NCBI RefSeq assembly: GCF_030065545.1 | Contig: NZ_JASJNC010000004.1 | Span: forward strand, 186,001-250,000 | Length of the DNA: 64,000 nt | Source: Marinicella marina | GTDB taxonomy: Bacteria > Pseudomonadota > Gammaproteobacteria > Xanthomonadales > Marinicellaceae | Reading direction: 5' to 3' | Part shown: positions 50,452 to 62,742 of the stretch, one piece after another | Position numbering within the stretch: position 1 is the stretch's first letter | How the letters are laid out: every line of letters starts with the position of its first letter | Program-made: the position numbers and the translations under genes | Notes under the pieces: generated by a model | Seen by the model: only the letters and a program-made list of their open reading frames with translations | Database searches by the model: none | Told to the model about the DNA's origin: nothing

Positions 50452-51213
50452 ATGATCATGCTGGTAAAAAACATATCCTTCATTGGCGTTATATTCACAG
50501 CCATGTTTATGATAAATGTTGTTCATGCACAAACAGCTTTCCTTGAACAAAACGGCTTAATCATAATTGAATTAGAGTCATTAACAGATATTCCAAATGG
50601 CTGGTCTGAGGAAAGCGTGTTCGATGAAATATCAGGGACCAGTTACCACCGTTATGCTGGTAATAACCAATTCAATAACCCGGGTGTGGACTTGTTTGAA
50701 GTGTTGATATTTATCCAAAACCCAGGTACCTATCAATTTCGTTGGCGCAACTTAATTGCAAAGGGCGACTCAAACACCGATGCCAATGATTCTTGGCTCA
50801 GAATCATTGCTGATGCTTATTACGGCCAACAAGGCAACGACAGCATTGTTTGTCCCAAAGGCTATGACCCAAACAACAATGACTGCCCAATTAACCTCGA
50901 TGCCGACGGTGAAGTCACGCCTGAGGGGTCAGGCAGTAACGGCTGGTTTAAAGTCTATCGCAGTGGTTCGGGCTTATGGAAATGGAGCACCCGCACCAGT
51001 GACAATGATGCCCATGAGATCTTTGCCCGATTTGATACCAGCGGTTTGTATTTAATCCAAATTTCTGGCCGCTCCCAGAACCATGCCATTGACCGCATGG
51101 TTCTGAATGATGTTAATTATAACGGCGATCCAACTGACTTGATTTTGCCCGAGTCAACAACCATCGATGCTGATTTGATTTTTGCTGATGGTTTTAACGG
51201 TGAATTCTTTTAA
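50452..51213 (+). CDS. Secreted CBM-like protein with C-terminal IFADGF motif
   Basis: A 253-residue protein with a signal peptide (about 1-26, ending NVVHA). The mature part is a beta-sandwich-like sequence: IIIELESLTDIPNGW, YQFRWRNLI, SWLRIIADAYYG, GLYLIQISGRSQNHAIDRMVL. This pattern resembles carbohydrate-binding modules of the CBM6/DUF5010 kind, where an R/D pair lies in the last strand. A two-cysteine loop (VCPKGYDPNNNDCP) is present. The C-terminus, TIDADLIFADGFNGEFF, contains an acidic-IFxDGF motif that may act in secretion or sorting; compare the Reeler-like protein's ending. A TATAAT at 50423-50428 is a candidate -10. Ligand unknown. Confidence 0.7.
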   Translation: MIMLVKNISFIGVIFTAMFMINVVHAQTAFLEQNGLIIIELESLTDIPNGWSEESVFDEISGTSYHRYAGNNQFNNPGVDLFEVLIFIQNPGTYQFRWRNLIAKGDSNTDANDSWLRIIADAYYGQQGNDSIVCPKGYDPNNNDCPINLDADGEVTPEGSGSNGWFKVYRSGSGLWKWSTRTSDNDAHEIFARFDTSGLYLIQISGRSQNHAIDRMVLNDVNYNGDPTDLILPESTTIDADLIFADGFNGEFF

Positions 51214-51229
51214 TCAATAGCACCTCAAA

Positions 51230-54200
51230 TCATTCTTTTTTGGTGGTTTTTTTTACTGCTTTCTTTTTGCTCGCTGACTTGTTCATCGCAGAACGTTTGG
51301 CAGCTTTGCTTTTGACCGTCTGACTTTCAGTTGTGTTTACCGTTCTGGTGGATTTTGAAAGACTGAGGTTCTTGATTTTTTGACTCAGTTCAGTCACCTG
51401 CTCCAGTACCTCATTATTGATATTAAGCTTCTTATTCATCGCTACCACAATCGGTACGAACGATGTTTCCAAAGTCTCAGACAGTGAAATCATCGCATCA
51501 TCAAGACCAGGCAACGGCTCATTTGAGACGTTGACTTGTAAATTCAGTTTCTCTATAGCTTGACTCAATCGATCGCTGACAATTGACAACTGTTGTTCAG
51601 TTTGACTTTGAGATGCTTGAGATTGTTGCATCCACTGCCCAGTCAATTCACTCATGTCGGTCTTTAAAGCACCAATTTGACTGGCAATCTTGGTGGCGCC
51701 ATCGGCCTCATCTCCAGCCAAAGCGTTGCGGATTTTAAATTCTGCTTTGATCGCCTGCCATCTTTCTTCATCTTCAGCATTCAAAGTACCTCTGAGTGCT
51801 TTCAATTTAAGTAAGTTTTCCTCAGCCCCAGTGGTCAACAGCTGCGCTTCACCCGCATAATGATCATCTATCAGCTGTTGCAGTTCATGCTGGTCCATCA
51901 CTGGTACCACTTTCTCAGCCAATTTATTCATGTTTCGGTAACTGCCCTGTAATTTGAAAGGTGGTTCTTGTCGGTACCTGTCATCCATCGCAGCAGATGA
52001 AATGTACGCTTGATTGACTTTCAAGATCACTTCTTGGACTGTGAACAAGTGTTTTAAAACAGTAATGATTTCGTTGATTTCACTGCTGGCATAACTGTGA
52101 GACAAATCTGATGTAGCCACTTCTTTGCCTTTGGCCATATCCATCAACAGGTATAAGTCATTCATCTCTCGCAGTGCCAGAGGAGCCAGCACCGGATTCG
52201 ATGTCAATGAGTTTTCAATGTAACTCATAGCAAACACATCCTCTTGTCCACCCAGAATGTCACCTAAGTTATAGACGTCGGCCCGATTGGCCAACATATC
52301 AGGAACCCTAAAGACTTCACCTGATTCGGTATACGGATTACCCGCCATGATCACACAGAATTTTTTGCCACGCATGTCATAGGTTTTACTCATGCCGCGC
52401 CACACCCCTTCGATTTTACGGGTACCGTCACATAACGAGATGAATTTCTGCAAGAACTCGGCATGGGTGTGCTGGATGTCATCCAAATACAACATCACAT
52501 TATTCCCCATCTCCAATGCTAAATTAAGCTTTTCAAGCTCTTGTTTGGCTGTTGCATTGGGCGCATTGGCTGGATCCAATGATTTGACATCATGCCCCAA
52601 TGAAGGACAGTTGATTTTCATAAAATTCAAACCCAAACGGTTCGCTGTGTACTCCATCAAAGTGGTTTTGCCGTAGCCTGGCGGTGATATTAACAGCAAC
52701 AAACCCATCAAATCACTGCGTTTGTTTTGTCCGGCGGCGCCCATCTGTTTGGCCAAATTATCACCAATGATGGGTAAATAAGACTGATTGATCAATTGGT
52801 TACGCACGAACGATGCCAATGGTCTGGCTTTGAAAGTTTCCAGCGCCATTTGTGCACGTTGTTCGTGCATCACGGTTTGTTTCATTTCACGGTATTCTTG
52901 GTATTCAGGCACCAGTTGTTGGTGATAATGGCTCAAACGCTCCATGAACTCATCGAACTCAAATTTGAGTGTGCGATTTTTGATGCGACTGTGATCCCCC
53001 AATAGATCGTCTACCTGACAAGCCAAATCCAATGCCGAAGCATCGTAAGCCTTGCCCTGTTTTGCCAAAATCAGCACAGTGGCTTCATTGATGAAGCGCA
53101 GCATGTCCTGATTTATTTCATTGTCTTTGCGAATCATGCCACTGAGCCAATAACCAATCAATTGCCACTGTTGTTTGGGGTCATCATTGAGCGCATCCAG
53201 CTCATTTTTGAAAGCCTTATCCTCTCCCACCGCGGTCAAATGATCATTCAGTTGTTTAACTAAATCTGCCGCATGTTTAGAGACTTGAAATGTTTTGGTC
53301 GGTGAATCATCAACGATATGGGCCAAAAGGAATTCAGCGGCCAACAGCATTTGTGCTGCGTTAAAGCGCAAATCATTCTGTAGATAAAAGGCGTCCATCT
53401 CCGCTTTGAATTCAACATACAAGTCTTGGCACATAGATCGGTCACCCAAGGTTTTGGCAATTTTATTAGCAGTTTGAGCGCGCTGTGTATAGTGCTTTTG
53501 GTTTTTAACACTGCTGTGCAACCAAAAATAGCTAGCCAATGCCCGAGCACTGGGCCCAAACATCATCAAAGGCGCTGTTTGGTATATCTGCAGCAATTGG
53601 CTGATGATTTTACTGGCATCATGATCATGGATGCCTTTTTCATAGCCTTCTTGGTAACGCGGGTTGGCATAGGCCTTGACAAAATCAACCAATGCCTCTT
53701 CATCCAACGACACCAACTGATCTATGCTGCTGCCTGCTTCACCCTGAATGGCATCTTGAAAAATGTTGTAAGCCAAATACTCGGCTCGGTAAACCGAGTC
53801 ATTTTCTGAGCTCATTGTTTGTGGCCAAAAGTCCTTGTAATCGTGTAGCTTTTGGTTATTCACAGGCTCATAAAAATCAGTCCCAGACAAATGAAAATAC
53901 AGGGCATCATTCCTTGGCAAAATGGTCAAATCAAGTGACTGGGTGTTGACGCTGAAACGGTGTTTCCCCAATTTAATGTTCTTGCCACCGTCTTCAAATA
54001 TGTCCTGCTTGTCCCTCAACGAACGTATGGCCTGCTCTTTGATGGCTTTTAGTCTGGCCTCTGTGTCATCGGCTTTGACACTGTCATCCAAGTCATGCAA
54101 CTGACCGATCAGCTCCTTGACTTTATGAATCATGGGATCGGAAGAATAATAGGTGTTCAATTGATCACTGTCGGTGAACTTCAAAGAACGCCGCTCTATA

Positions 54201-56551
54201 CTTTTTAACACCCGAGTGGCTGCAGATTGTACATTCTCGGCTTTGCGTTGGCGTTGATCAATCAGACTTTGTTTCTTGTTTTCAAAGGTCTCGTGTAGTT
54301 CTTCGCGTTTGGTCAGTATTTGGTCTAAAAAGGCTTCGTTCTCACTGAAGTTAACCTCAAGCTCTTCCAACAACACCATCAAACGCGCCAACTGTTCATC
54401 ACAACCATCAGGCGTTTCTGCCAGGGCCACCCCACTGGTGATGCTTTGCGAAAGGACTGCCAATTGAGCACCAAACTCAGCCACTGATTCAGTTGCTGAC
54501 AGCTCCTTGCTGGTCAGCTTAGCATGCGCTTTGGTTTGATTGATCCGAGAGTATACTTGTGAAACTGACTCTAATATGGCGGTTTTCTGCAGCGTATCAT
54601 CAATTTCTAAACCGTTGATGACCTCTGAGAGTGCATCCAAACCCAAACTCATTTCATCCAATTCGTCCAACAAAGGCTTTAAATCTTTGACTGTTTTAAT
54701 CTCAGCGGTTTTTTGGTGCACCTCATCGACCACCTGCTCATAATGCAACATGGCTTGTTCATCCGACAGGAACTGAATGGTTCTTTTACCCAGTGCCTCA
54801 ATTTCATCATCCACTTGCAATGACAAGTCTTCAATCGCACTTAAATCAATATAACGGTACTCGCGCAATGACAACAAGTGGCCTTTTTGTCGTTTTAACT
54901 GCAACAAACCATCTACAAATGGTGCTGGCGTATCCCAATTAGCAATTTTGATTTCACGAAGTAATTGTTGTAAGTCATGCTGAGCCTCTTTCAACGCTTT
55001 GGCACTTTGTAGATTGATTGATTTGACCTTTTCAAACTCGTCCAACACCAATTCTGATGTTTCACCAATCAAATCCAACTGTTCTGAGAAATCACCCACG
55101 GCTGAATTTTCCAGCCAATAATAACCATCCTTCACCCGCTGGATGTTTTTTATCAAATCCTCATAGACTTGAACACTGGGTTGTTGCTCACTGATCAGTT
55201 TGGAAATACCATATAGTTCTGAGATGCCTTGGACCAATTCCGCATTTCCAATGGTTGATAATTCACTGTCATCTTTGCTTTGACTGGCACTGTATTCCTC
55301 ACTGGTATAAGGCGTTTGCCAGATTTGCATGGGGTGTATCCGCGTCGCCTCAGTTGACTCGGCGCGAAAAATAATCATTTTGCCATCATCATATAATGAA
55401 TAACCGTGACCAAAAATGGGATTTTGTAATTCCTTGCGGATGGTGTTGTAAGAATAAAGCGCCAGTTTTCCTTCCAGCTTTTCATAAAACACATACAGCA
55501 CATCTTCGCCATTGGGTGCATTCCAGCGCCGTTTGAACAACAAACCATCTACATCTTCAGCAAAGACTTTGGATTCACCACTTTGTAAGTAGTAACCACC
55601 AGGGAAAATGATGCCATGATCATTTGGCAACTGCACACAAGCATGTCCCAAGGCATCTATTCGCAAGACCTCATTGTTGCGGGTATTGAACACAAAATAA
55701 CGCCAATCTTGTTCTTTGTAAGGCAAGATTTTTAATAAAATCAAGGCATGGACTTTGGCATAGTAGATGTCGGCATCTTCCAAAGATTGATTCGGTTCAT
55801 CAACCGCCTCTTGGTAAATACCCTCACCATCCTCGGTGTTATTCTCGACCTTGATGGTCAAATCACCACCGACGGTTTCAACAAAAACTTCATCCATGAT
55901 TGATACATGAGGGTGACGGCCTTGAACGAATTGGTCTCGCTCGGCTTTGTGCCACTCAAAATCATAAGCCGGTGGTAATTCAATGTCGCGCTCACCGCGA
56001 TCATCGATGTATTGCACTTCACCGTTGTTGCCTATGACCCAACGAAATACCCTGATGTCGCCGATTTTTTCGCCAATTTGGAATGCCGCCAAGAGTTTTT
56101 GATCGACCACACGCAGCTGAATCAACTCGGCTTTTTTGTAGTAACTGTAGAGCTCTAAAAACTGTTTAACAAAAACCTCGTCAGCCAGGAATGAACCGGC
56201 CAATGGTTCCGCTTTGACTTCAAATTTTCCCTCGTTTTCATGCAGCGAATACAGCGCGAAAACGTCCTTTACTTGGGTGGCTTTTTTTAAACCAATAAAC
56301 ACATTGTAGCCAAACAACAATTGTCCATTGATTCGCACCATATCACGTGGTGTGCAATTGTTTTCTGTTCTTACCCTGACCCGATCAACCACTTCAAGTA
56401 CCGTTTTGCCGAATGTTGATTCACGCAATTGGTTCAAGCCAATGATTTTTTGTTCTAATTGTTTGTTTTGTTCCTCTAGGCGTTTGCGAATGACCTCATA
56501 TGAGCCGCCACTGGCTACCGCTTGATTGATGGTGCTGTTGTTATCAGCCAT
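51230..56551 (-). CDS. Giant AAA+ ATPase of the DNA-repair-ATPase (DUF3686-type) family
   Basis: A 1773-residue cytosolic protein, the largest in the window. Residues about 1-480 form a beta-rich, repeat-like N-terminal domain (DUF3686-type as I recall the name), with blocks such as NGQLLFGYNVFIGLKK and YFVFNTRNNEVLRIDALG. Long coiled-coil helices occupy about 480-880, and a helical region about 900-1280. A AAA+ domain follows: Walker A PPGYGKTTLMEY near residue 1294, Walker B VMLYLDDIQH near 1355, sensor 1 VIMAGNPYTESG near 1403. A basic, Lys/Ser/Ala-rich tail closes the protein. The database label 'DNA repair ATPase' is not backed by any nuclease or DNA-binding motif seen here; adjacency to flotillin, OB-fold and PspA genes argues for a membrane-related role. 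A GGAG lies 7 nt before the ATG. Confidence 0.8.
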   Translation of the reverse strand: MADNNSTINQAVASGGSYEVIRKRLEEQNKQLEQKIIGLNQLRESTFGKTVLEVVDRVRVRTENNCTPRDMVRINGQLLFGYNVFIGLKKATQVKDVFALYSLHENEGKFEVKAEPLAGSFLADEVFVKQFLELYSYYKKAELIQLRVVDQKLLAAFQIGEKIGDIRVFRWVIGNNGEVQYIDDRGERDIELPPAYDFEWHKAERDQFVQGRHPHVSIMDEVFVETVGGDLTIKVENNTEDGEGIYQEAVDEPNQSLEDADIYYAKVHALILLKILPYKEQDWRYFVFNTRNNEVLRIDALGHACVQLPNDHGIIFPGGYYLQSGESKVFAEDVDGLLFKRRWNAPNGEDVLYVFYEKLEGKLALYSYNTIRKELQNPIFGHGYSLYDDGKMIIFRAESTEATRIHPMQIWQTPYTSEEYSASQSKDDSELSTIGNAELVQGISELYGISKLISEQQPSVQVYEDLIKNIQRVKDGYYWLENSAVGDFSEQLDLIGETSELVLDEFEKVKSINLQSAKALKEAQHDLQQLLREIKIANWDTPAPFVDGLLQLKRQKGHLLSLREYRYIDLSAIEDLSLQVDDEIEALGKRTIQFLSDEQAMLHYEQVVDEVHQKTAEIKTVKDLKPLLDELDEMSLGLDALSEVINGLEIDDTLQKTAILESVSQVYSRINQTKAHAKLTSKELSATESVAEFGAQLAVLSQSITSGVALAETPDGCDEQLARLMVLLEELEVNFSENEAFLDQILTKREELHETFENKKQSLIDQRQRKAENVQSAATRVLKSIERRSLKFTDSDQLNTYYSSDPMIHKVKELIGQLHDLDDSVKADDTEARLKAIKEQAIRSLRDKQDIFEDGGKNIKLGKHRFSVNTQSLDLTILPRNDALYFHLSGTDFYEPVNNQKLHDYKDFWPQTMSSENDSVYRAEYLAYNIFQDAIQGEAGSSIDQLVSLDEEALVDFVKAYANPRYQEGYEKGIHDHDASKIISQLLQIYQTAPLMMFGPSARALASYFWLHSSVKNQKHYTQRAQTANKIAKTLGDRSMCQDLYVEFKAEMDAFYLQNDLRFNAAQMLLAAEFLLAHIVDDSPTKTFQVSKHAADLVKQLNDHLTAVGEDKAFKNELDALNDDPKQQWQLIGYWLSGMIRKDNEINQDMLRFINEATVLILAKQGKAYDASALDLACQVDDLLGDHSRIKNRTLKFEFDEFMERLSHYHQQLVPEYQEYREMKQTVMHEQRAQMALETFKARPLASFVRNQLINQSYLPIIGDNLAKQMGAAGQNKRSDLMGLLLLISPPGYGKTTLMEYTANRLGLNFMKINCPSLGHDVKSLDPANAPNATAKQELEKLNLALEMGNNVMLYLDDIQHTHAEFLQKFISLCDGTRKIEGVWRGMSKTYDMRGKKFCVIMAGNPYTESGEVFRVPDMLANRADVYNLGDILGGQEDVFAMSYIENSLTSNPVLAPLALREMNDLYLLMDMAKGKEVATSDLSHSYASSEINEIITVLKHLFTVQEVILKVNQAYISSAAMDDRYRQEPPFKLQGSYRNMNKLAEKVVPVMDQHELQQLIDDHYAGEAQLLTTGAEENLLKLKALRGTLNAEDEERWQAIKAEFKIRNALAGDEADGATKIASQIGALKTDMSELTGQWMQQSQASQSQTEQQLSIVSDRLSQAIEKLNLQVNVSNEPLPGLDDAMISLSETLETSFVPIVVAMNKKLNINNEVLEQVTELSQKIKNLSLSKSTRTVNTTESQTVKSKAAKRSAMNKSASKKKAVKKTTKKE

Positions 56552-56591
56552 GCCTCACTCCAAAATACTGTAATTAAACGTTCCTTGCCAG

Positions 56592-56621
56592 CAGCAGAGC
56601 CAGAATCAACTGGCCCTGCTG
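56592..56621 (-). other. Intercistronic hairpin between flotillin and ATPase genes
   Basis: CAGCAG/CTGCTG (6 bp), one A-C mismatch, then GCCAG/CTGGC (5 bp) around a 6-nt AATCAA loop. It lies in the 83-bp gap between the yqiK-like stop and the ATPase start. No U-run follows on the minus strand, so it probably does not terminate. It could protect the upstream mRNA or set different levels for the two genes. Confidence 0.5.
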
Positions 56622-56634
56622 GTATGCATCAACT

Positions 56635-58638
56635 TTAACTTTCGGTGTCTTGCTCATCGTTGCGAGACAATTTCTTGATCATTTGAGTGATGGTGTCTTT
56701 ATCAAAACTCTTACCGTTACCCAAACTCATGACCTTAGCCACCGCAGCTTGTAAGATGTCGCTTTTACCAATGGCACCATCTACCGCTTTACCCACTGCC
56801 AACGAACTCATGAACTTCTCTAAGAAGTCACCATTGCCACCGACAATATCGATATTCGCTTCTTTTAAAGCCTCTGCCAGTACTTTGGCTTGGGTTTCAG
56901 CAATACCCGTATTGGCCTCAATCGCTTTCATGTTCTCAACATGCGACATGTCTAAGCCCATGCGAAACTCCTCATGTTCTCTGACCGTCTCATCCATGGT
57001 CGCCAGCGCCGCAAACTTCTCTTTCAAACCTCGTGCTTCTGCCGCATAGCGTTCTTCGATGGCTTGTGCTTCAGCCACTTTAATCTTCACTGCGACCATG
57101 GCTTGTTGTTCTTCACCTTGAGCATCCGCTTCTTTCACCCGCACATTGGCCATGCCTATATCCTCAGCACCGACCGCCTCTGCTTTGAATTTCTCTGCCA
57201 TCACAGCCGCTTCTGCCTCACCTTGTTTCTGATGAGCGGCGGCTTTGGCTTCTATGACTTTGGCTTCTGCCAAACCAGTGGCAGCCGCTTCCTCACGCAC
57301 ACCTTCAGCCAATCTGATTTTGGCATCGGCTTCTTTGGCTGCTGATTCACGTGCCGCCTCAGCCAGAGTGATGCGCTCACTGGCACGGTGTTTGGCTGTG
57401 GTTTCTTGTGCTTCGGCCGCTTTGATTTCCTTGATTAAATCTTGTTCTGCCAAAGCTTCAGCTGCAATCACCTGAGCTTGTTTGTTGCGTTTGGCTTCTT
57501 CCACCACCCGCAGTTCATTGATTTTTTCTTCTTGCTCAGCCACTGTTTTTTCTACCGCTATGCGTTCACGCACCACATCTGCAATGTTTTTCTTTTCAAC
57601 CTCAAGGTCTTTTTCTTTGTTGATTTCTTGCAGCGCCACTTCACGTTCACGGCCAACAATTTCTAACTGTCTAACCTTAGTGACTTTTTCTTCTTCGATT
57701 GCCACCGCACGCATGCGGTTATTGGCCGCCACTTCAACTTCTCGCTGTTTGTTTTCTTCCAGTACCATCAGTTCTTGATCGGTAGCAATCCTGGCTGTTT
57801 CTGCTTTCAGGCGTTCTTCACTTTCAATTTTTTCTTTTTCAGCTTCCTCGCGGGCTTTGACCGAAGCAATTTCGCGCATCTGCCTGGCCTCTGCATCGGC
57901 TTCAATGCGTTCCAACTCTAAAATTCGCTCCCTGGCTTCAACATCCCTTTTCTTGATTTTGGTTTCCTCTTCACGCTCAAACTCATTGGTGAGGATTTTT
58001 TGTTTCGCCGTTAACTCAGTGATTTTACGAATACCCTGGGCATCCAAGATGTTGTTCTCATCCAAAGACGAAATCGGCGTTTGCTCCAAATAGTCAATCG
58101 CCGCATCTTCCAACACATAACCATTCAAGTCTTTACCAATGACCATGATGATTTCATCCCTGAAGCGATCACGTTCTTCATACAACTCCTCAAACTCAAG
58201 TTTTTTACCCACAGTTTTTAAAGCTTCTGAGAACTTGGCACTGAATAACTCTTCTATGGTGGCTTGTTTAGATGCCCGCTCACAACCAATCGCTTGTGCC
58301 ACTTTCAGTACGTCTTCTTTGGTTTTATTAACTCGAACAAAGAAGGTTACCTTGATATCCGCCCTGATGTTGTCCTTACAAATCAATCCATCTTGAGCCC
58401 GACGATCAATCTCAATGGTCTTGAGTGATATGTTCATGAATTCCTTTTTATGAATAACTGGCCACACGGTGCGACCCGTAAAGGTCACTTCCGGTGTTTC
58501 TTTCATGGTGTTCACAATCATGGCCTGACCCTGCTCTACCTTTTGGTAGAACTTCATCACAATCAGGGCCAACCCGATGAGTGCCAACACCACCACCCCA
58601 GCATAGGTGGCTATGGCTATTAATAAGTCGCTATTCAT
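56635..58638 (-). CDS. yqiK: YqiK-type flotillin (SPFH) protein
   Basis: A 667-residue flotillin. One N-terminal membrane helix (about 7-29: IATYAGVVVLALIGLALIV) is followed by an SPFH domain (about 40-200: VEQGQAMIVNTMKETPEVTF, INISLKT-like segment, DIKVTFFVRVNKT, EELFSAKFSEALKTVG). A very long Ala/Glu/Lys coiled coil (about 220-570) carries many AEAQ/EAEAK-type repeats, and a globular tail ends the protein. Flotillins form membrane microdomain scaffolds. The domain order matches E. coli YqiK. AAAGGAG lies 9 nt before the ATG. A YqiJ-like gene precedes it by 96 bp, the same gene order as yqiJK of E. coli. Confidence 0.9.
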   Translation of the reverse strand: MNSDLLIAIATYAGVVVLALIGLALIVMKFYQKVEQGQAMIVNTMKETPEVTFTGRTVWPVIHKKEFMNISLKTIEIDRRAQDGLICKDNIRADIKVTFFVRVNKTKEDVLKVAQAIGCERASKQATIEELFSAKFSEALKTVGKKLEFEELYEERDRFRDEIIMVIGKDLNGYVLEDAAIDYLEQTPISSLDENNILDAQGIRKITELTAKQKILTNEFEREEETKIKKRDVEARERILELERIEADAEARQMREIASVKAREEAEKEKIESEERLKAETARIATDQELMVLEENKQREVEVAANNRMRAVAIEEEKVTKVRQLEIVGREREVALQEINKEKDLEVEKKNIADVVRERIAVEKTVAEQEEKINELRVVEEAKRNKQAQVIAAEALAEQDLIKEIKAAEAQETTAKHRASERITLAEAARESAAKEADAKIRLAEGVREEAAATGLAEAKVIEAKAAAHQKQGEAEAAVMAEKFKAEAVGAEDIGMANVRVKEADAQGEEQQAMVAVKIKVAEAQAIEERYAAEARGLKEKFAALATMDETVREHEEFRMGLDMSHVENMKAIEANTGIAETQAKVLAEALKEANIDIVGGNGDFLEKFMSSLAVGKAVDGAIGKSDILQAAVAKVMSLGNGKSFDKDTITQMIKKLSRNDEQDTES

Positions 58639-58734
58639 TGTTTATTTCTCCTTTATCAGTCTTTGCTATATTGTCCACAACCGAAGTTGTTACTTGTTGT
58701 TTCATGGTTTGTGTTTAAGACAGACCATTTATTT

Positions 58735-59433
58735 TTAATTTAATTCTTCTGCTTTGATGACCCAGTAACTGCCGTCTTCTTCATCGTATGATTTCAGTAT
58801 GACCAAATCACCTTTGGTGATGTTATCAGACACTTTGGCTCTGACATCAAACAGCATCCCTGCGCCACCATCTTGGTACTCTGCTTGGCCGAAGCTCTCA
58901 GTGACAGAGCCCGTTTTAACCAAACACTCACTGCCTATGAAAGAAACCTTGTTTCTGGCCGTGTACGACACAAAAGCACTTTTCAGAGGCCTGATGAATT
59001 GTGCCGTGACTGGTATGGCCAAAGCAAAACTGACCAATAACAAAGCCGCACCAACCAACCACTGTAACAGCGCCAAAGGAATCAGTGGCATAACCACTGA
59101 TGCCAAAATGTAACTGATCAACCAAGCCGAAGCCACCAAAATCGAGACCACCACAGTCACAGGCACACCAGTCAGACCCCATTTCAACATAAAGCCGGTA
59201 ATCCCTCTGAGACTTTCAGGGTCAAAATCAGGATCTACCGTAGCACCTACATCGGCATCTACATCAAGCTCAATATCTGCGTCAACATCAACATCAAGAT
59301 CGAAGTCAGCATCAAACATATCAATATCAACCGCACCTAACATCGCCAATAACCAGTAAACAATGATGATTGCCAGTAAAAAGGTAAACACAATCACAGG
59401 AAAACTCGTTATGTTTGTTAAAAAAATTTCCAT
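58735..59433 (-). CDS. yqiJ: YqiJ-like OB-fold membrane protein with Asp-rich loop
   Basis: A 232-residue protein of the YqiJ (NfeD-related) type. An N-terminal membrane helix (about 8-30) is followed by an extreme acidic loop (about 32-73) with roughly one Asp in every two residues (blocks such as DADFDLDVDVDADIEL). Two or three membrane helices follow (about 80-145), then an OB-fold (about 155-232: VSFIGSECLVKTGSVT, DVRAKVSDNITKGDLVILKS, WVIKAEEL). NfeD-like OB domains pair with SPFH proteins. The frame begins at a GTG (59436), but the ATG at 59433 has a GAGGAG at 5 nt and overlaps the previous stop by 1 nt. The acidic loop might bind calcium or a basic partner. Confidence 0.82.
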   Translation of the reverse strand: MEIFLTNITSFPVIVFTFLLAIIIVYWLLAMLGAVDIDMFDADFDLDVDVDADIELDVDADVGATVDPDFDPESLRGITGFMLKWGLTGVPVTVVVSILVASAWLISYILASVVMPLIPLALLQWLVGAALLLVSFALAIPVTAQFIRPLKSAFVSYTARNKVSFIGSECLVKTGSVTESFGQAEYQDGGAGMLFDVRAKVSDNITKGDLVILKSYDEEDGSYWVIKAEELN

Positions 59434-59774
59434 CACAGCTCCTCATCAATATTTTTGACGTGCTCAATCAGTTTTTCTGCAGCTCGCCTTTTGACCTCAA
59501 CAGGGTCATTGGTTTCTAATTCATACGCTTCGGCTAAAAAAGCCATGTCATCATCAGACAGTGAGATTGATAGACGCAGTCGTTTTGGTTTTCGCGACAC
59601 ACTCAGACCCAGAATTTGTCTGATTCTGTCAGACGGGTTGATGCTTCTGTCTAAAGCTTCTTTTCTGATCACATATTGGATTTTCTCACCCACATCGAAA
59701 GCCACCTGGGTGGCCTTCACCGCTTTCTTCTCCTTGGCCCATTTATTCAAGATTTGTTGTTTCTTATCAGTCAT
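59433..59774 (-). CDS. Small basic protein with ribbon-helix-helix-like profile
   Basis: A 113-residue protein. The first 60 residues are helical and Lys/Arg-rich (ILNKWAKEKKAVKATQ, IRQILGL). The C-terminal half reads like a ribbon-helix-helix: a strand (KRLRLSISLS), helix A (DDDMAFLAEAYEL), a turn, and helix B (VEVKRRAAEKLIEHV). If so it could bind DNA and be the regulator of this locus, but it could also be a structural adaptor of the flotillin complex. The gene is preceded by a 131-bp gap, in which a 13-bp sequence is repeated in tandem 12 nt from the ATG. It overlaps the YqiJ-like gene start. No family is recognised with confidence. Confidence 0.7.
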   Translation of the reverse strand: MTDKKQQILNKWAKEKKAVKATQVAFDVGEKIQYVIRKEALDRSINPSDRIRQILGLSVSRKPKRLRLSISLSDDDMAFLAEAYELETNDPVEVKRRAAEKLIEHVKNIDEEL

Positions 59775-59785
59775 GCAGCCAATAT

Positions 59786-59811
59786 TTCCCTGTCAACAAT
59801 CCCTGTCGACA
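59786..59811 (-). repeat. Tandem 13-bp direct repeat upstream of the RHH-like gene
   Basis: On the minus strand TGTCGACAGGGAT is followed directly by TGTTGACAGGGAA: two copies differing at two positions. The repeat sits 12-37 nt before the ATG of the RHH-like gene. Ribbon-helix-helix repressors often bind tandem direct repeats, so it is a possible operator, although TTGACA within the second copy could also be part of a promoter. Confidence 0.4.
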
Positions 59812-59905
59812 CATCAACTGCATGGTCCTTAGCCTGATAATAAATTTGATTCATGGGTTTCATTCATTCAACTCAAAAATAAGCATTAATAAAAGTTGCA
59901 ACAGA

Positions 59906-60616
59906 TCATTCCTTGTCAATGATCCTTTTCAACACATCTGCTGCATCTTCCGTGACTTGTTCAGAAACTTCATTCTGATGTTTTTCGGTCAACACTGGCT
60001 TGCGCTCATTAACCATTGCATCATCCACTTCATATTGTTCATCAAGGCTTTGCTGTTTTCTGCGTATCCTTTCCAAGGATCGTTTGGCAGATAACATTTT
60101 GCTGTCGGCTTGGTTGAAGTTTTTGGTAATGACTTCAGTCGCCTTTTGGATGTCCGCAGTGGTTTGTACCATTGCCACCTGCCGTTCCAGTTCTTTCAAT
60201 GAACGTTCGGCATTTTCCATTTGTCGAGTCAAATGACCTAAGTGCAGTTCATGTGACTTGAGTATGCCCGCCTCGGCTGCCAGGTCTTGTTCCAGTTCAA
60301 CCATTTCAGTGGCCAAATCAAAAGCCAATATTTCATCATTTTGACTCAAAGCCTTAATGATGCGCTGCTCATGCTCATCAACTTGCGACTTCATCAACTT
60401 AACTTTTCTAGAGCATTGTGATTCTTTGGCCAATGCGTCGCTGATGGCATGTTTGGCACTGCTTAAATTAACTTTGGCCACTTCAATTTGTTTTTCGTAT
60501 ATTTTATTACCAGTTGAATCCATAACCGCTTCACTCAATGCCCTGGAATCATCTCTGATGACTTGAATGATCTTATCTAAGATGTTCATTCCTGCACGTT
60601 TCTTATCACCACTCAT
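59906..60616 (-). CDS. PspA/IM30 family protein, YjfJ type
   Basis: A 236-residue helical protein of the PspA/IM30/ESCRT-III superfamily: almost wholly coiled coil, with an N-terminal amphipathic-looking segment (MNILDKIIQVIRDD), the long helices at about 35-190 (AKHAISDALAKESQCSRKVKLM, LAFDLATEMVELEQDLAAEAGIL), and a tail that ends in KRIIDKE. The match is to E. coli YjfJ rather than to PspA itself. PspA-type proteins polymerise on damaged membranes. The ATG overlaps the YjfI stop (ATGA), so the two are coupled as in the E. coli yjfIJ order. Confidence 0.85.
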   Translation of the reverse strand: MSGDKKRAGMNILDKIIQVIRDDSRALSEAVMDSTGNKIYEKQIEVAKVNLSSAKHAISDALAKESQCSRKVKLMKSQVDEHEQRIIKALSQNDEILAFDLATEMVELEQDLAAEAGILKSHELHLGHLTRQMENAERSLKELERQVAMVQTTADIQKATEVITKNFNQADSKMLSAKRSLERIRRKQQSLDEQYEVDDAMVNERKPVLTEKHQNEVSEQVTEDAADVLKRIIDKE

Positions 60617-61020
60617 TTTAAGAAGTCCTCCATGGCCGATACCACATCAACAGCGTTTTCGTTCAACATCACCACCTCTTCCACCACTTTATCTAACTCA
60701 GAACTGACCGATAAAGCACCGAAAAGCACATACCGATCGCCTACCCTGGCGTAAGATGACAATGGTATTGAAATGCTGGTATCAAGCATCATTTCTAACA
60801 TCTCAGTGCGCCTGTCTGCTCTGATTTCATCCTCGGTCCATAAATAGATGATACAAATGATTTGAAATTGAGTTTGCGTAATAAACACCGGAAAACCATC
60901 AAACCCATTGATCTCAACCTGTAACACTTCTACTTCCCCAGTGATTCTTTGGCAATCAAAAGTAAAGCCTTCCGTGGTTCTGTGTTGAGATAATTTAATG
61001 GCAAAATCCTCTGTGTTCAT
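60613..61020 (-). CDS. yjfI: YjfI (DUF2170) family protein
   Basis: A 135-residue protein of the DUF2170 family (YjfI in E. coli): VEVLQVEINGFDGFPVFI, FQIICIIYLWTEDEI, LLDTSISIPLSSYA-like segment and VLFGALSVSSELDKVVEEVVML. DUF2170 proteins nearly always accompany YjfJ/PspA homologues and are thought to assist in membrane stress. Good ribosome-binding site (AAGGAG) 10 nt before the ATG. It is the first gene of the operon driven by the palindrome-flanked promoter at 61056-61088; it is coupled to the PspA homologue through the ATGA overlap. Confidence 0.88.
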   Translation of the reverse strand: MNTEDFAIKLSQHRTTEGFTFDCQRITGEVEVLQVEINGFDGFPVFITQTQFQIICIIYLWTEDEIRADRRTEMLEMMLDTSISIPLSSYARVGDRYVLFGALSVSSELDKVVEEVVMLNENAVDVVSAMEDFLK

Positions 61021-61055
61021 ATCGTTTTTCTCTCCTTCATCTGCTCAATGCATGA

Positions 61056-61088
61056 TGACATAATATGTCACAATGACATAATATGTCA
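61056..61088 (-). promoter_or_regulatory. Promoter with twin 15-bp palindromic operators
   Basis: The sequence TGACATAATATGTCA occurs twice (61056-61070 and 61074-61088). Each copy is a perfect 7-bp inverted repeat around one central base, and the centres are 18 bp apart. Read on the minus strand, the distal copy supplies a consensus -35 (TTGACA, 61087-61082) and the proximal copy a -10 (TATTAT, 61065-61060) with an 18-bp spacer. The start would be about 33 nt before the yjfI ATG. A protein bound to both sites would block polymerase, so a repressor operator is the simplest reading. The protein is not known. Confidence 0.75.
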
Positions 61089-61219
61089 ATGTGCATGAAG
61101 TCACATATGAACTGTATTTGACATCTAGGCAGGTATGAAAATGAATTAAATAAGGGGCTTATATGATTGTAAAACTTAACAATAAATAAAAAAATTACCC
61201 GAAAAGTAAGTGGCTGAAA

Positions 61220-62206
61220 TTAATTTTGATTATTTTCTGGTTCAATTTCATGCAGCGCTGCGCTTGAGTCATCACTGACCTGCTGCATGTGTTCAAGGGT
61301 CTGATCAATCAATACTTTGGCTTGTTCTAATTTGGCCGTATCGATTCTGAAGTGCTCGGCATGCTTTTGCTGGCGTTGATTGTTGTTGGCCATCGCCACA
61401 CCAGCTGCCACATCCAGAGCGGCTGTGGTGGTCATCACCGTTTGGTCAATATCACGGATCAAGCTTTGGTTTTGTTTGATGATCAATTCTACGGTCATCA
61501 TCGCTTGTCTGGCGATCAAGGATTGTTGTTGTAGGTCGATCAAGCGTTGTTGCACTGGGCCAAGTAATTCATCATCAATGACCGCTAAGTGATGGGCACT
61601 GATTGTTAAGGTATCTGCGCTGCGTAGTTTGAGTTGTTGTTCGAAGACAGTCACGAAATCAAAGCTTTGGGTCAGTTTTTGCAAACCCGCCATCAACGCT
61701 TCATGATCGCCGTTGAGAATCTGATTGTCGCGCATCAACTGCCGCTTTTCAGCATTTAACTGTTCCACCAATCCAACCATCACTTTGCGTTTTTCCGGGA
61801 AATTATCCAACCACATTTGATAAGCTGATTCTCGCCAAGAAAACAACAACAAAAAACGTTCCCTCCAGCTCAATCTGCGTTGAGGAGGTTGCATGTCAGC
61901 CACCTGTTGCGAAAGTTGAGCCAGTAACTTTGATACCTTACCACCGGCATCGGTATCTGCCATCAATTGTTGCAAAGGATGAATCAAGCGCTTATTCAAC
62001 TGCCAATAAGCCGCCTGCTCCTCTGCCCCCAACTCAAATAAGGCATTCCTGACTTGATCAACCAACTGTAAATCATTGAAATCCATCGCCAGCACCCAAT
62101 CAACCAATTGATCAGCAGCTTTTTCTATGTATGCCTCAGACTCATGACTGATCATTGCATGATCAAGTGTGCTTAATTGTTTAAAAGTTGCCAGTGCAGC
62201 CTTCAT
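61220..62206 (-). CDS. Divergent TelA-like (toxic-anion resistance) protein
   Basis: A 328-residue cytosolic helical protein. The central and C-terminal part resembles TelA/KlaA of tellurite resistance loci: YQMWLDNFPEKRKVMVGLVEQL, the following DNQILNGDHEALMAGL, the LQQQSLIARQAMMTVELI block, and NQSLIRDIDQTVMTTTAAL with ALDVAAGVAMANNN. The N-terminal 110 residues are not recognised. TelA itself is of unknown biochemistry, often found with ter genes. It lies 200 bp upstream of yjfI on the same strand; whether it shares a transcript with the others is unclear because the operator-bearing promoter lies between. The call is by pattern and should be treated as moderate. Confidence 0.65.
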   Translation of the reverse strand: MKAALATFKQLSTLDHAMISHESEAYIEKAADQLVDWVLAMDFNDLQLVDQVRNALFELGAEEQAAYWQLNKRLIHPLQQLMADTDAGGKVSKLLAQLSQQVADMQPPQRRLSWRERFLLLFSWRESAYQMWLDNFPEKRKVMVGLVEQLNAEKRQLMRDNQILNGDHEALMAGLQKLTQSFDFVTVFEQQLKLRSADTLTISAHHLAVIDDELLGPVQQRLIDLQQQSLIARQAMMTVELIIKQNQSLIRDIDQTVMTTTAALDVAAGVAMANNNQRQQKHAEHFRIDTAKLEQAKVLIDQTLEHMQQVSDDSSAALHEIEPENNQN

Positions 62207-62331
62207 TAAAGATTAACCATCCTGTTGTTTTTTCCTATTATATACATGTATCATTCAAAGACATAAGCCTCAAATAAACAAGGTTTAATTAATCAAGATT
62301 TCTCAGAATAACAATAAACCTACTAAAGCCT

Positions 62332-62742
62332 ATGAAACAATTTCACCTCAGTATCAAAACCCCAGGACGTGGATATTATTTAATCACTGACCAAATCAAT
62401 CGGTGTGTTGAAGAAGCTCTGGCTGGGCTTGATGTGGGTTTGTTGCATGTATTCTTGCAGCATTCATCGGCCAGTCTGACCATCAACGAAAATGCCGATC
62501 CGACGGTACGTGAGGATTTCAAGAACTTTGAGGAAAAGTTGGTACCTAGGAATTTTCCCTATCGGCATAACTATGAGGGTGATGATGACATGCCTGCGCA
62601 CATAAAATCTTCACTGATGGGCTGTCAATTATCCATACCAATCAGCGGTGGACGTTTGGCACTGGGCACTTGGCAGGGAATTTATTTGTGTGAGCACCGC
62701 GATCAACCACATCAAAGAAATATGGTATTAACCATCTATTAA
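62332..62742 (+). CDS. yjbQ: YjbQ (UPF0047) family protein
   Basis: A 136-residue protein of the YjbQ/UPF0047 family, some members of which have thiamine-phosphate synthase activity. Motifs: GLLHVFLQHSSASLTINENADPTVREDF, NYEGDDDMPAHIKSSLMG, and GRLALGTWQGIYLCEHRD with the conserved His/Glu residues. The length fits the family (about 138). It is divergent from the TelA-like gene with 125 bp between them, so its promoter lies there. The true cellular role is not settled in the literature as I know it. Confidence 0.92.
   Translation: MKQFHLSIKTPGRGYYLITDQINRCVEEALAGLDVGLLHVFLQHSSASLTINENADPTVREDFKNFEEKLVPRNFPYRHNYEGDDDMPAHIKSSLMGCQLSIPISGGRLALGTWQGIYLCEHRDQPHQRNMVLTIY

Follow-up and report, generated by a model that had tools for sequence, protein, structure and literature searches.

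What kind of system is encoded where a TelA-like protein, a YjfI-PspA pair, a small ribbon-helix-helix (RHH)-like protein, a YqiJ-like membrane protein, a flotillin and a giant AAA+ ATPase lie together on one strand, and how would such a system be switched? We address this question for positions 51230-62206, minus strand, of a 64,000-nucleotide stretch of Marinicella marina DNA (the window; contig NZ_JASJNC010000004.1, positions 186,001 to 250,000, assembly GCF_030065545.1), whose host has a 3.46 Mb gammaproteobacterial genome. An earlier reading of the letters alone, here called the sequence-only reading, had proposed a seven-gene membrane-repair unit at this place; an open reading frame (ORF) check of the window found all seven ORFs, and Pfam, BLASTP and profile comparisons bore out the families assigned to them. 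The locus is probably a PspA-flotillin membrane-stress operon of the bac type (group 1 of Ravi 2024), governed by a repressor of its own, the 113-aa protein P113, acting on paired 15-bp palindromes. Its features, in the order of transcription, are as follows.

61220-62206, minus strand: TelA-like protein, 328 aa, a divergent PF05816 member (80.8 bits).
61056-61088, no strand: operator, two perfect palindromes TGACATAWTATGTCA at 61056-61070 and 61074-61088, start-to-start spacing 18 bp.
61060-61089, minus strand: promoter TTGACA-N18-TATTAT (11/12), the best-scoring promoter-like site of 51000-62400.
60613-61020, minus strand: YjfI/DUF2170 protein (CesT/Tir-like), 135 aa, BacA homologue (PF09938, 112 bits).
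59906-60616, minus strand: PspA/IM30 protein of the YjfJ/BacB type, 236 aa (PF04012, 65 bits).
59433-59774, minus strand: P113, predicted regulator, modelled as a single-chain tandem RHH protein (structure model and VIA).
58735-59433, minus strand: YqiJ-like membrane protein with three transmembrane (TM) segments (hydrophobic segments and a profile match to Escherichia coli YqiJ; ATG at 59433).
56635-58638, minus strand: flotillin-like SPFH protein, YqiK type, 667 aa (N-terminal TM segment, long coiled coil).
51230-56551, minus strand: giant ATPase, 1773 aa, with DUF3686, DUF7902, a long helical middle and a C-terminal AAA module (PF12458, 658 bits).

The regulatory part of the answer lies in the 199-nt gap between the TelA-like gene and yjfI, which holds TGACATAATATGTCA twice in perfect form at a spacing of 18 bp; nowhere else in the 3.46 Mb genome is there a perfect match. 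The -35 element falls in the upstream palindrome and the -10 element in the downstream palindrome, just before yjfI. The promoter score alone is weak evidence, because 18 promoter-like sites were found in 51000-62400 against 19.7 expected; it is the overlap with the palindromes that matters. Since the gap carries the best sigma-70-like promoter of the region, the likely operon comprises six genes, and the seven genes, which do adjoin as the sequence-only reading had it, are better described as this operon with the TelA-like gene as an upstream companion. A sigma-54 promoter of the bac type before yjfI was considered and ruled out, as no -24/-12 site was found between the TelA-like gene and yjfI at ≤3 mismatches, and the window as a whole has 118 such sites against 125 expected by chance. 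In the mechanism that we propose, P113 would bind the palindrome pair over the -35 and -10 elements and shut the operon promoter, as the operator geometry suggests, and envelope stress would lift this repression via some signal. YjfI would then act as a PspA chaperone, a role suggested by the CesT/Tir fold reported in the literature and by a conserved PspA tail, PspA would assemble on damaged membrane, flotillin and YqiJ would build an SPFH scaffold, and the MoxR-like ATPase would remodel it. Action on damaged membrane is established for PspA generally.

Is P113 the kind of protein that could read such palindromes? It matched no family in the Pfam scan and nothing significant among PDB sequences, and Foldseek alone gave no match to its model under E 0.001. 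The model (pLDDT 74) folds into two beta-alpha-alpha units in one chain (E22-25/H30-42/H47-55 and E69-72/H74-83/H91-112). When it was re-aligned to PDB chains with VIA, TraY (9f12, Z 7.2), single-chain Arc (1u9p, Z 7.1) and AvtR (4hv0, Z 6.8) came first, after which the rows drop to Z ≤5.5; only VIA set the single-chain RHH proteins (rows 1-8) apart. F-plasmid TraY and single-chain Arc, both with two RHH units per chain like the P113 model (~16% identity), stand clear of the unrelated rows. P113 hence looks like two RHH units in a single chain, as in TraY, and like a DNA-binding switch, although TraY acts at oriT and P113 belongs to a chromosomal stress operon. The label 'RHH-like' that the sequence-only reading had given to this protein thus agrees with the model; that reading had overlooked the probable operators and the wider regulon that they suggest. 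Homologues of P113 occur in the family of the window's host and, more distantly, in other Gammaproteobacteria. A P113 profile scan detected it in 13 of 369 class genomes, beside yjfI in 11 of the 13, in P113-yjfI operons of either the flotillin-ATPase or the spermine synthase type.

The operator and P113 go together. Among 78 yjfI loci with upstream DNA, and counting the operator at ≤2 mismatches, it precedes yjfI in 28 of the 32 loci with P113 vs 1 of the 46 without, and a reversed control motif occurred once in the 78. The lone P113-less locus with an operator, L165, lies on a cut-off contig of a genome that carries P113 elsewhere. The four P113 loci below the cut-off (L102, L132, L187 and L188) carry a CCCCATA variant in which the CATAWTATG core is intact, CCCCATAWTATGTCT, possibly a variant operator with a co-evolved P113. 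TTGACA overlaps the operator site in 27/32 P113 loci.

Sites at unlinked genes extend this association. A scan of 368 other class genomes for the exact pattern returned four sites, three of them immediately upstream of yjfI (of these, two have P113 in their operon and one lies on a cut-off contig) and one upstream of a Band_7 (SPFH) gene. In genome G139, where the PspA operon is unlinked to the flotillin-ATPase operon, six sites at ≤1 mismatch all front relevant genes: two precede yjfI-pspA-DUF4178-P113, and the others a lipoprotein-DUF350-spermine synthase operon, YqiJ-flotillin-ATPase, a Band_7 gene and NfeD-Band_7-Band_7. In G139 the reversed control pattern occurs once. The sole site of genome G233 at this threshold fronts a pspA. 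Twelve P113 genomes together hold 25 sites at ≤1 mismatch, 21 of which front yjfI, pspA, SPFH/flotillin, NfeD or polyamine operons; the other four do not clearly do so (before a TraB-family gene, before an AI-2E transporter, near cutA/groEL and at a surface-protein ORF). An operator or its 1-mismatch form stands before an SPFH-type gene both at L164 5678 in G139 and at L214 2158 in G281. In two genus members a further 1-mismatch operator, TGACAAAATATGTCA, is flanked by a lipocalin gene and a gene for a large secreted protein, at L168 4041 (G000:C2) and L213 2571 (G287); in G000:C2 the site follows the 3' end of the lipocalin gene and precedes the other gene by ~150 bp. We give even weight for and against the broader proposal that one operator word, TGACATAWTATGTCA, and a dedicated master regulator, P113, define a 'PspA-SPFH' regulon in Gammaproteobacteria, which would take in the YjfI-PspA, flotillin-YqiJ-ATPase, NfeD-stomatin, prohibitin-like SPFH and polyamine/DUF350 operons even where they lie far apart.

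Several observations weigh against P113 as the reader of these sites and against the scheme built on it. The P113-bearing loci form one clade on the YjfI+PspA tree, with one change of state, so that the 78-locus table comes close to recording one evolutionary event, and the Fisher p-value drawn from it is not independent evidence; a tree-based independent-pairs test was powerless, the origin of P113 being single on the tree. The Z of ~7 for P113 is middling, and was obtained with a model of pLDDT 74. Genome G315 has P113 and 0 sites at ≤1 mismatch. Outside the locus, the window's genome offers no convincing regulon site: one site has 1 mismatch and the rest have 2, with 4 sites for the reversed-pattern control against 9; a regulon in this genome was accordingly set aside, the 2-mismatch sites being mostly inside genes or near unrelated genes. 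Genome G281, a genus member that is 88% complete and in which P113 was not found, has a 1-mismatch near-operator before an SPFH-type gene (L214 2158), which means that another factor could read similar sites. Finally, for the ATPase-flotillin and YjfI-PspA steps of the mechanism the neighbourhood is the sole basis.

Two of these points, the single origin of P113 and operator on the tree and the near-site in G281, would also suit an alternative in which the palindromes are another regulator's sites while P113, with a structural or nucleic-acid-binding role, merely accompanies the YjfI-PspA clade. We consider this unlikely. P113 is RHH-like, and the RHH fold usually binds short palindromes; the operator and P113 occur together across the flotillin-ATPase and the spermine synthase architectures, and in trans in G139 and G233; and among members of the window's genus, 9 of the 11 with the operon have the paired site (in the remaining two a contig end cuts the locus), vs 0 of 7 without it. 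A P113-repressed membrane-stress operon remains our preferred reading of the locus.

Is the grouping of the genes itself more than an accident of this genome? We compiled 87 DUF3686-ATPase loci, each with ≥7 kb upstream, from sampled class genomes and a genome-contig scan (best 80 matches), a sample that leans to Gammaproteobacteria, and scored the neighbours by family profiles. DUF3686 was detected in 7 of the 274 class genomes sampled, and the 14 control genomes, E. coli included, gave no match. The ATPase is accompanied by flotillin in 85/87 loci, YqiJ in 85/87, YjfI in 65/87 and PspA in 62/87, the last being a lower bound because diverged PspA may have been missed in L062-L065, which have YjfI and P113 with PspA undetected. 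Hence, a five-gene core, YjfI-PspA-YqiJ-flotillin-DUF3686/AAA ATPase, with its order kept, is real and conserved in Gammaproteobacteria, and the grouping that the sequence-only reading had put up for a co-occurrence check is not accidental. The other two genes of the locus are rarer companions: P113 occurs in 20/87 ATPase loci and the TelA-like gene in 7/87, and in six distant ATPase loci neither was found next to the ATPase. The ATPase loci also have recurrent extra neighbours (clusters c0, c1, c3 and c10); a membrane protein that is rhomboid-like by eye was seen in 26 of them, a 229-aa protein in 20, a zinc-ribbon protein in 15 and a small helical protein of EF-hand-like appearance, often encoded between the flotillin and the ATPase, in 8.

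In the window the pairing within the core is tight. The DUF2170 gene lies immediately 5' of the PspA gene with a 4-nt overlap (ATGA), and P113 and YqiJ share 1 nt (TGATG), both overlaps reading as had been noted from the letters. The YjfI family profile matches E. coli YjfI with 90.5 bits, and the PspA of this locus is the only PspA_IM30 protein of the whole genome. The flotillin-like and YqiJ-like proteins reached no Pfam model, Band_7 included, in the Pfam scan of the window's proteins. The former, with a TM segment at residues 1-34, is 28% identical to E. coli YqiK over 447 aa (BLASTP, E 2e-34), and the YqiJ family profile aligns with E. coli YqiJ over residues 16-192 (33.8 bits); direct BLASTP of the window's YqiJ-like protein against E. 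coli YqiJ gave no significant match. A search of the window DNA for Rfam and tRNA features found none.

On what, then, would the giant ATPase act? Its Pfam matches are PF12458 (DUF3686, 658 bits), AAA (32 bits) and AAA_5 (25.5 bits, cut-off 22), and across 26 homologues the residues of Walker A, Walker B and the sensors do not vary. Pfam describes PF12458 as 'ATPase involved in DNA repair', and there are weak RuvB matches, from which one could suppose that the ATPase is a DNA-repair protein and that the operon serves genome maintenance. We regard this as very improbable, since the constant neighbours are membrane proteins, as the sequence-only reading had remarked, the MoxR group comes first by fold, and the RuvB matches are confined to the P-loop stretch and fall far short of the cut-off. 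The sequence-only reading had itself suggested that PspA polymerises on stressed membrane with flotillin and YqiJ as the scaffold, and that the AAA+ ATPase disassembles the polymers as Vps4 does ESCRT-III. PspA belongs to the ESCRT-III superfamily, and the ATPase and PspA adjoin in 62/87 loci. Furthermore, an ESCRT-like role has been proposed for such clusters (PMC11237479). However, YqiJ, flotillin and ATPase occur without YjfI and PspA in 19/87 loci and the ATPase almost never without flotillin and YqiJ, and PspA is therefore not an obligate partner of the ATPase. When a model of the AAA module (pLDDT 75) was compared by Foldseek and VIA, NorQ/CbbQ of the MoxR group filled the top nine rows (Z 15.6-14.2), followed by dynein and Clp, with Vps4 chains at Z 13.0-12.6; the lead of the MoxR group, ~2 Z, is modest, and with a model of this pLDDT the fold is also compatible with Vps4. 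The Pfam scan showed no MIT domain among the matches of the 1773-aa protein. As stated, the claim that the ATPase is the Vps4 of PspA is thus unsupported, and we think it doubtful that the ATPase disassembles PspA polymers; the constancy of flotillin and YqiJ, together with the MoxR-like fold of the model, makes it more likely that the ATPase acts on, and remodels, the SPFH-YqiJ assembly. In G139 (L013 6168-6510), an in-frame TGA interrupts the DUF3686 ATPase frame near the N-terminal end, which points to an assembly error or to decay of the ATPase next to an intact flotillin and YqiJ.

The tail of PspA bears on the same question. The window's PspA (C-terminus at 59906-59950) ends in ADVLKRIIDKE, and a motif (V/I)LxR(L/I)KxK after a variable linker is found in 70 of 72 YjfI-linked PspA proteins vs 3% of shuffled tails. 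It is present in E. coli YjfJ and absent from E. coli PspA. The idea that this tail (VLxRLK) is a MIM1-like, operon-specific hook for the ATPase was dropped, because in E. coli, where no such ATPase was found, YjfJ has the tail too; that YjfJ keeps it, yet the DUF3686 search of the control genomes was empty, likewise speaks against a Vps4-like role. The tail is likely to be a binding segment for the CesT-like YjfI, which would fit YjfI as the chaperone in the mechanism set out above.

The TelA-like protein, upstream of the operator and promoter, is a lineage-specific, genus-level companion of the operon. It scores 80.8 bits against PF05816 (cut-off 30), and a canonical TelA elsewhere in the same genome reaches 375 bits. 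Nine genus genomes have the TelA-like gene, 9/9 of them with P113, vs 0/7 genus members without P113, and the protein is fast-evolving, with 29-55% identity within the genus. It probably has its own promoter. In genome G283 (L051 / L070) the TelA-like gene and yjfI are separated by an inserted gene of 1078 aa (cluster c8), which agrees with the TelA-like gene being a separate transcription unit.

How much of this is new? The operon belongs to a type known from the literature, and its core has already been described. Ravi et al. 2024 reported a CesT/Tir-PspA operon with flotillin, AAA+ and YqiJ/YuaF genes and suggested the ESCRT-like analogy (PMC11237479); like the window, it has the YjfI/DUF2170-PspA dyad, a band-7/flotillin coiled-coil protein and a YqiJ-like 3-TM protein, and its AAA+ ATPase has an N-terminal propeller and a coiled coil (PMC11237479). 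The membrane-linked unit of the sequence-only reading is conserved and not accidental, but neither the operon nor the analogy is new. In contrast to the window, the main text of that paper describes no TelA-like gene, RHH gene or operator in the flotillin-AAA+ class, and notes an RHH transcription factor only as the last gene of the spermine synthase class (PMC11237479). In Pseudomonas aeruginosa, bacA-F form a single transcript with a putative sigma-54 site and have biofilm phenotypes (PMC2587700, PMC10948618), and the bacA-F proteins are up 6- to 13-fold without BacA (PMC10948618). As in the window, DUF2170 (BacA) and PspA (BacB) are followed by more genes of one transcript, and the Pseudomonas loci in our neighbour survey read YjfI-PspA-YqiJ-flotillin-ATPase. 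The bac operon differs in its putative sigma-54 promoter and in having no P113 or palindromes; the promoter before the window's yjfI is sigma-70-like and overlaid by palindromes.

E. coli yjfIJKL and yqiJK encode the same component families as the window but, as the sequence-only reading had stated for yjfIJ and yqiJK, form two separate loci in E. coli K-12, with no DUF3686 ATPase and no P113 beside them; up-regulation of yjfIJKL has been linked to heat tolerance (PMC12492005). A functional link between SPFH and PspA proteins has been shown for Bacillus subtilis YdjGHI-PspA (PMC8581546), which differs from the window in its membrane partners, in its regulation and in having no giant ATPase in the described complex. 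As far as our literature search shows, the pair formed by P113 and the operator, with its sites in trans, is undescribed.

What would such a pair mean for the biology of these systems? Links between PspA and partners outside the classical psp operon have mostly been drawn from gene neighbourhood. A shared operator at unlinked genes is evidence of another sort than adjacency, and would indicate that the cell itself co-induces PspA, flotillins, NfeD-stomatin and polyamine genes. The 33-bp DNA element and the 113-aa protein offer a handle for binding, de-repression and inducer screens, by which the claim of a common function becomes directly testable, and the DUF3686 ATPase, commonly labelled as DNA repair, is redirected to flotillin and YqiJ as its likely partners. 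If the proposed regulon is true, it would amount to a psp-type response without PspF or sigma-54, and would provide regulatory evidence that ESCRT-III-like, SPFH and polyamine systems belong to one membrane programme.

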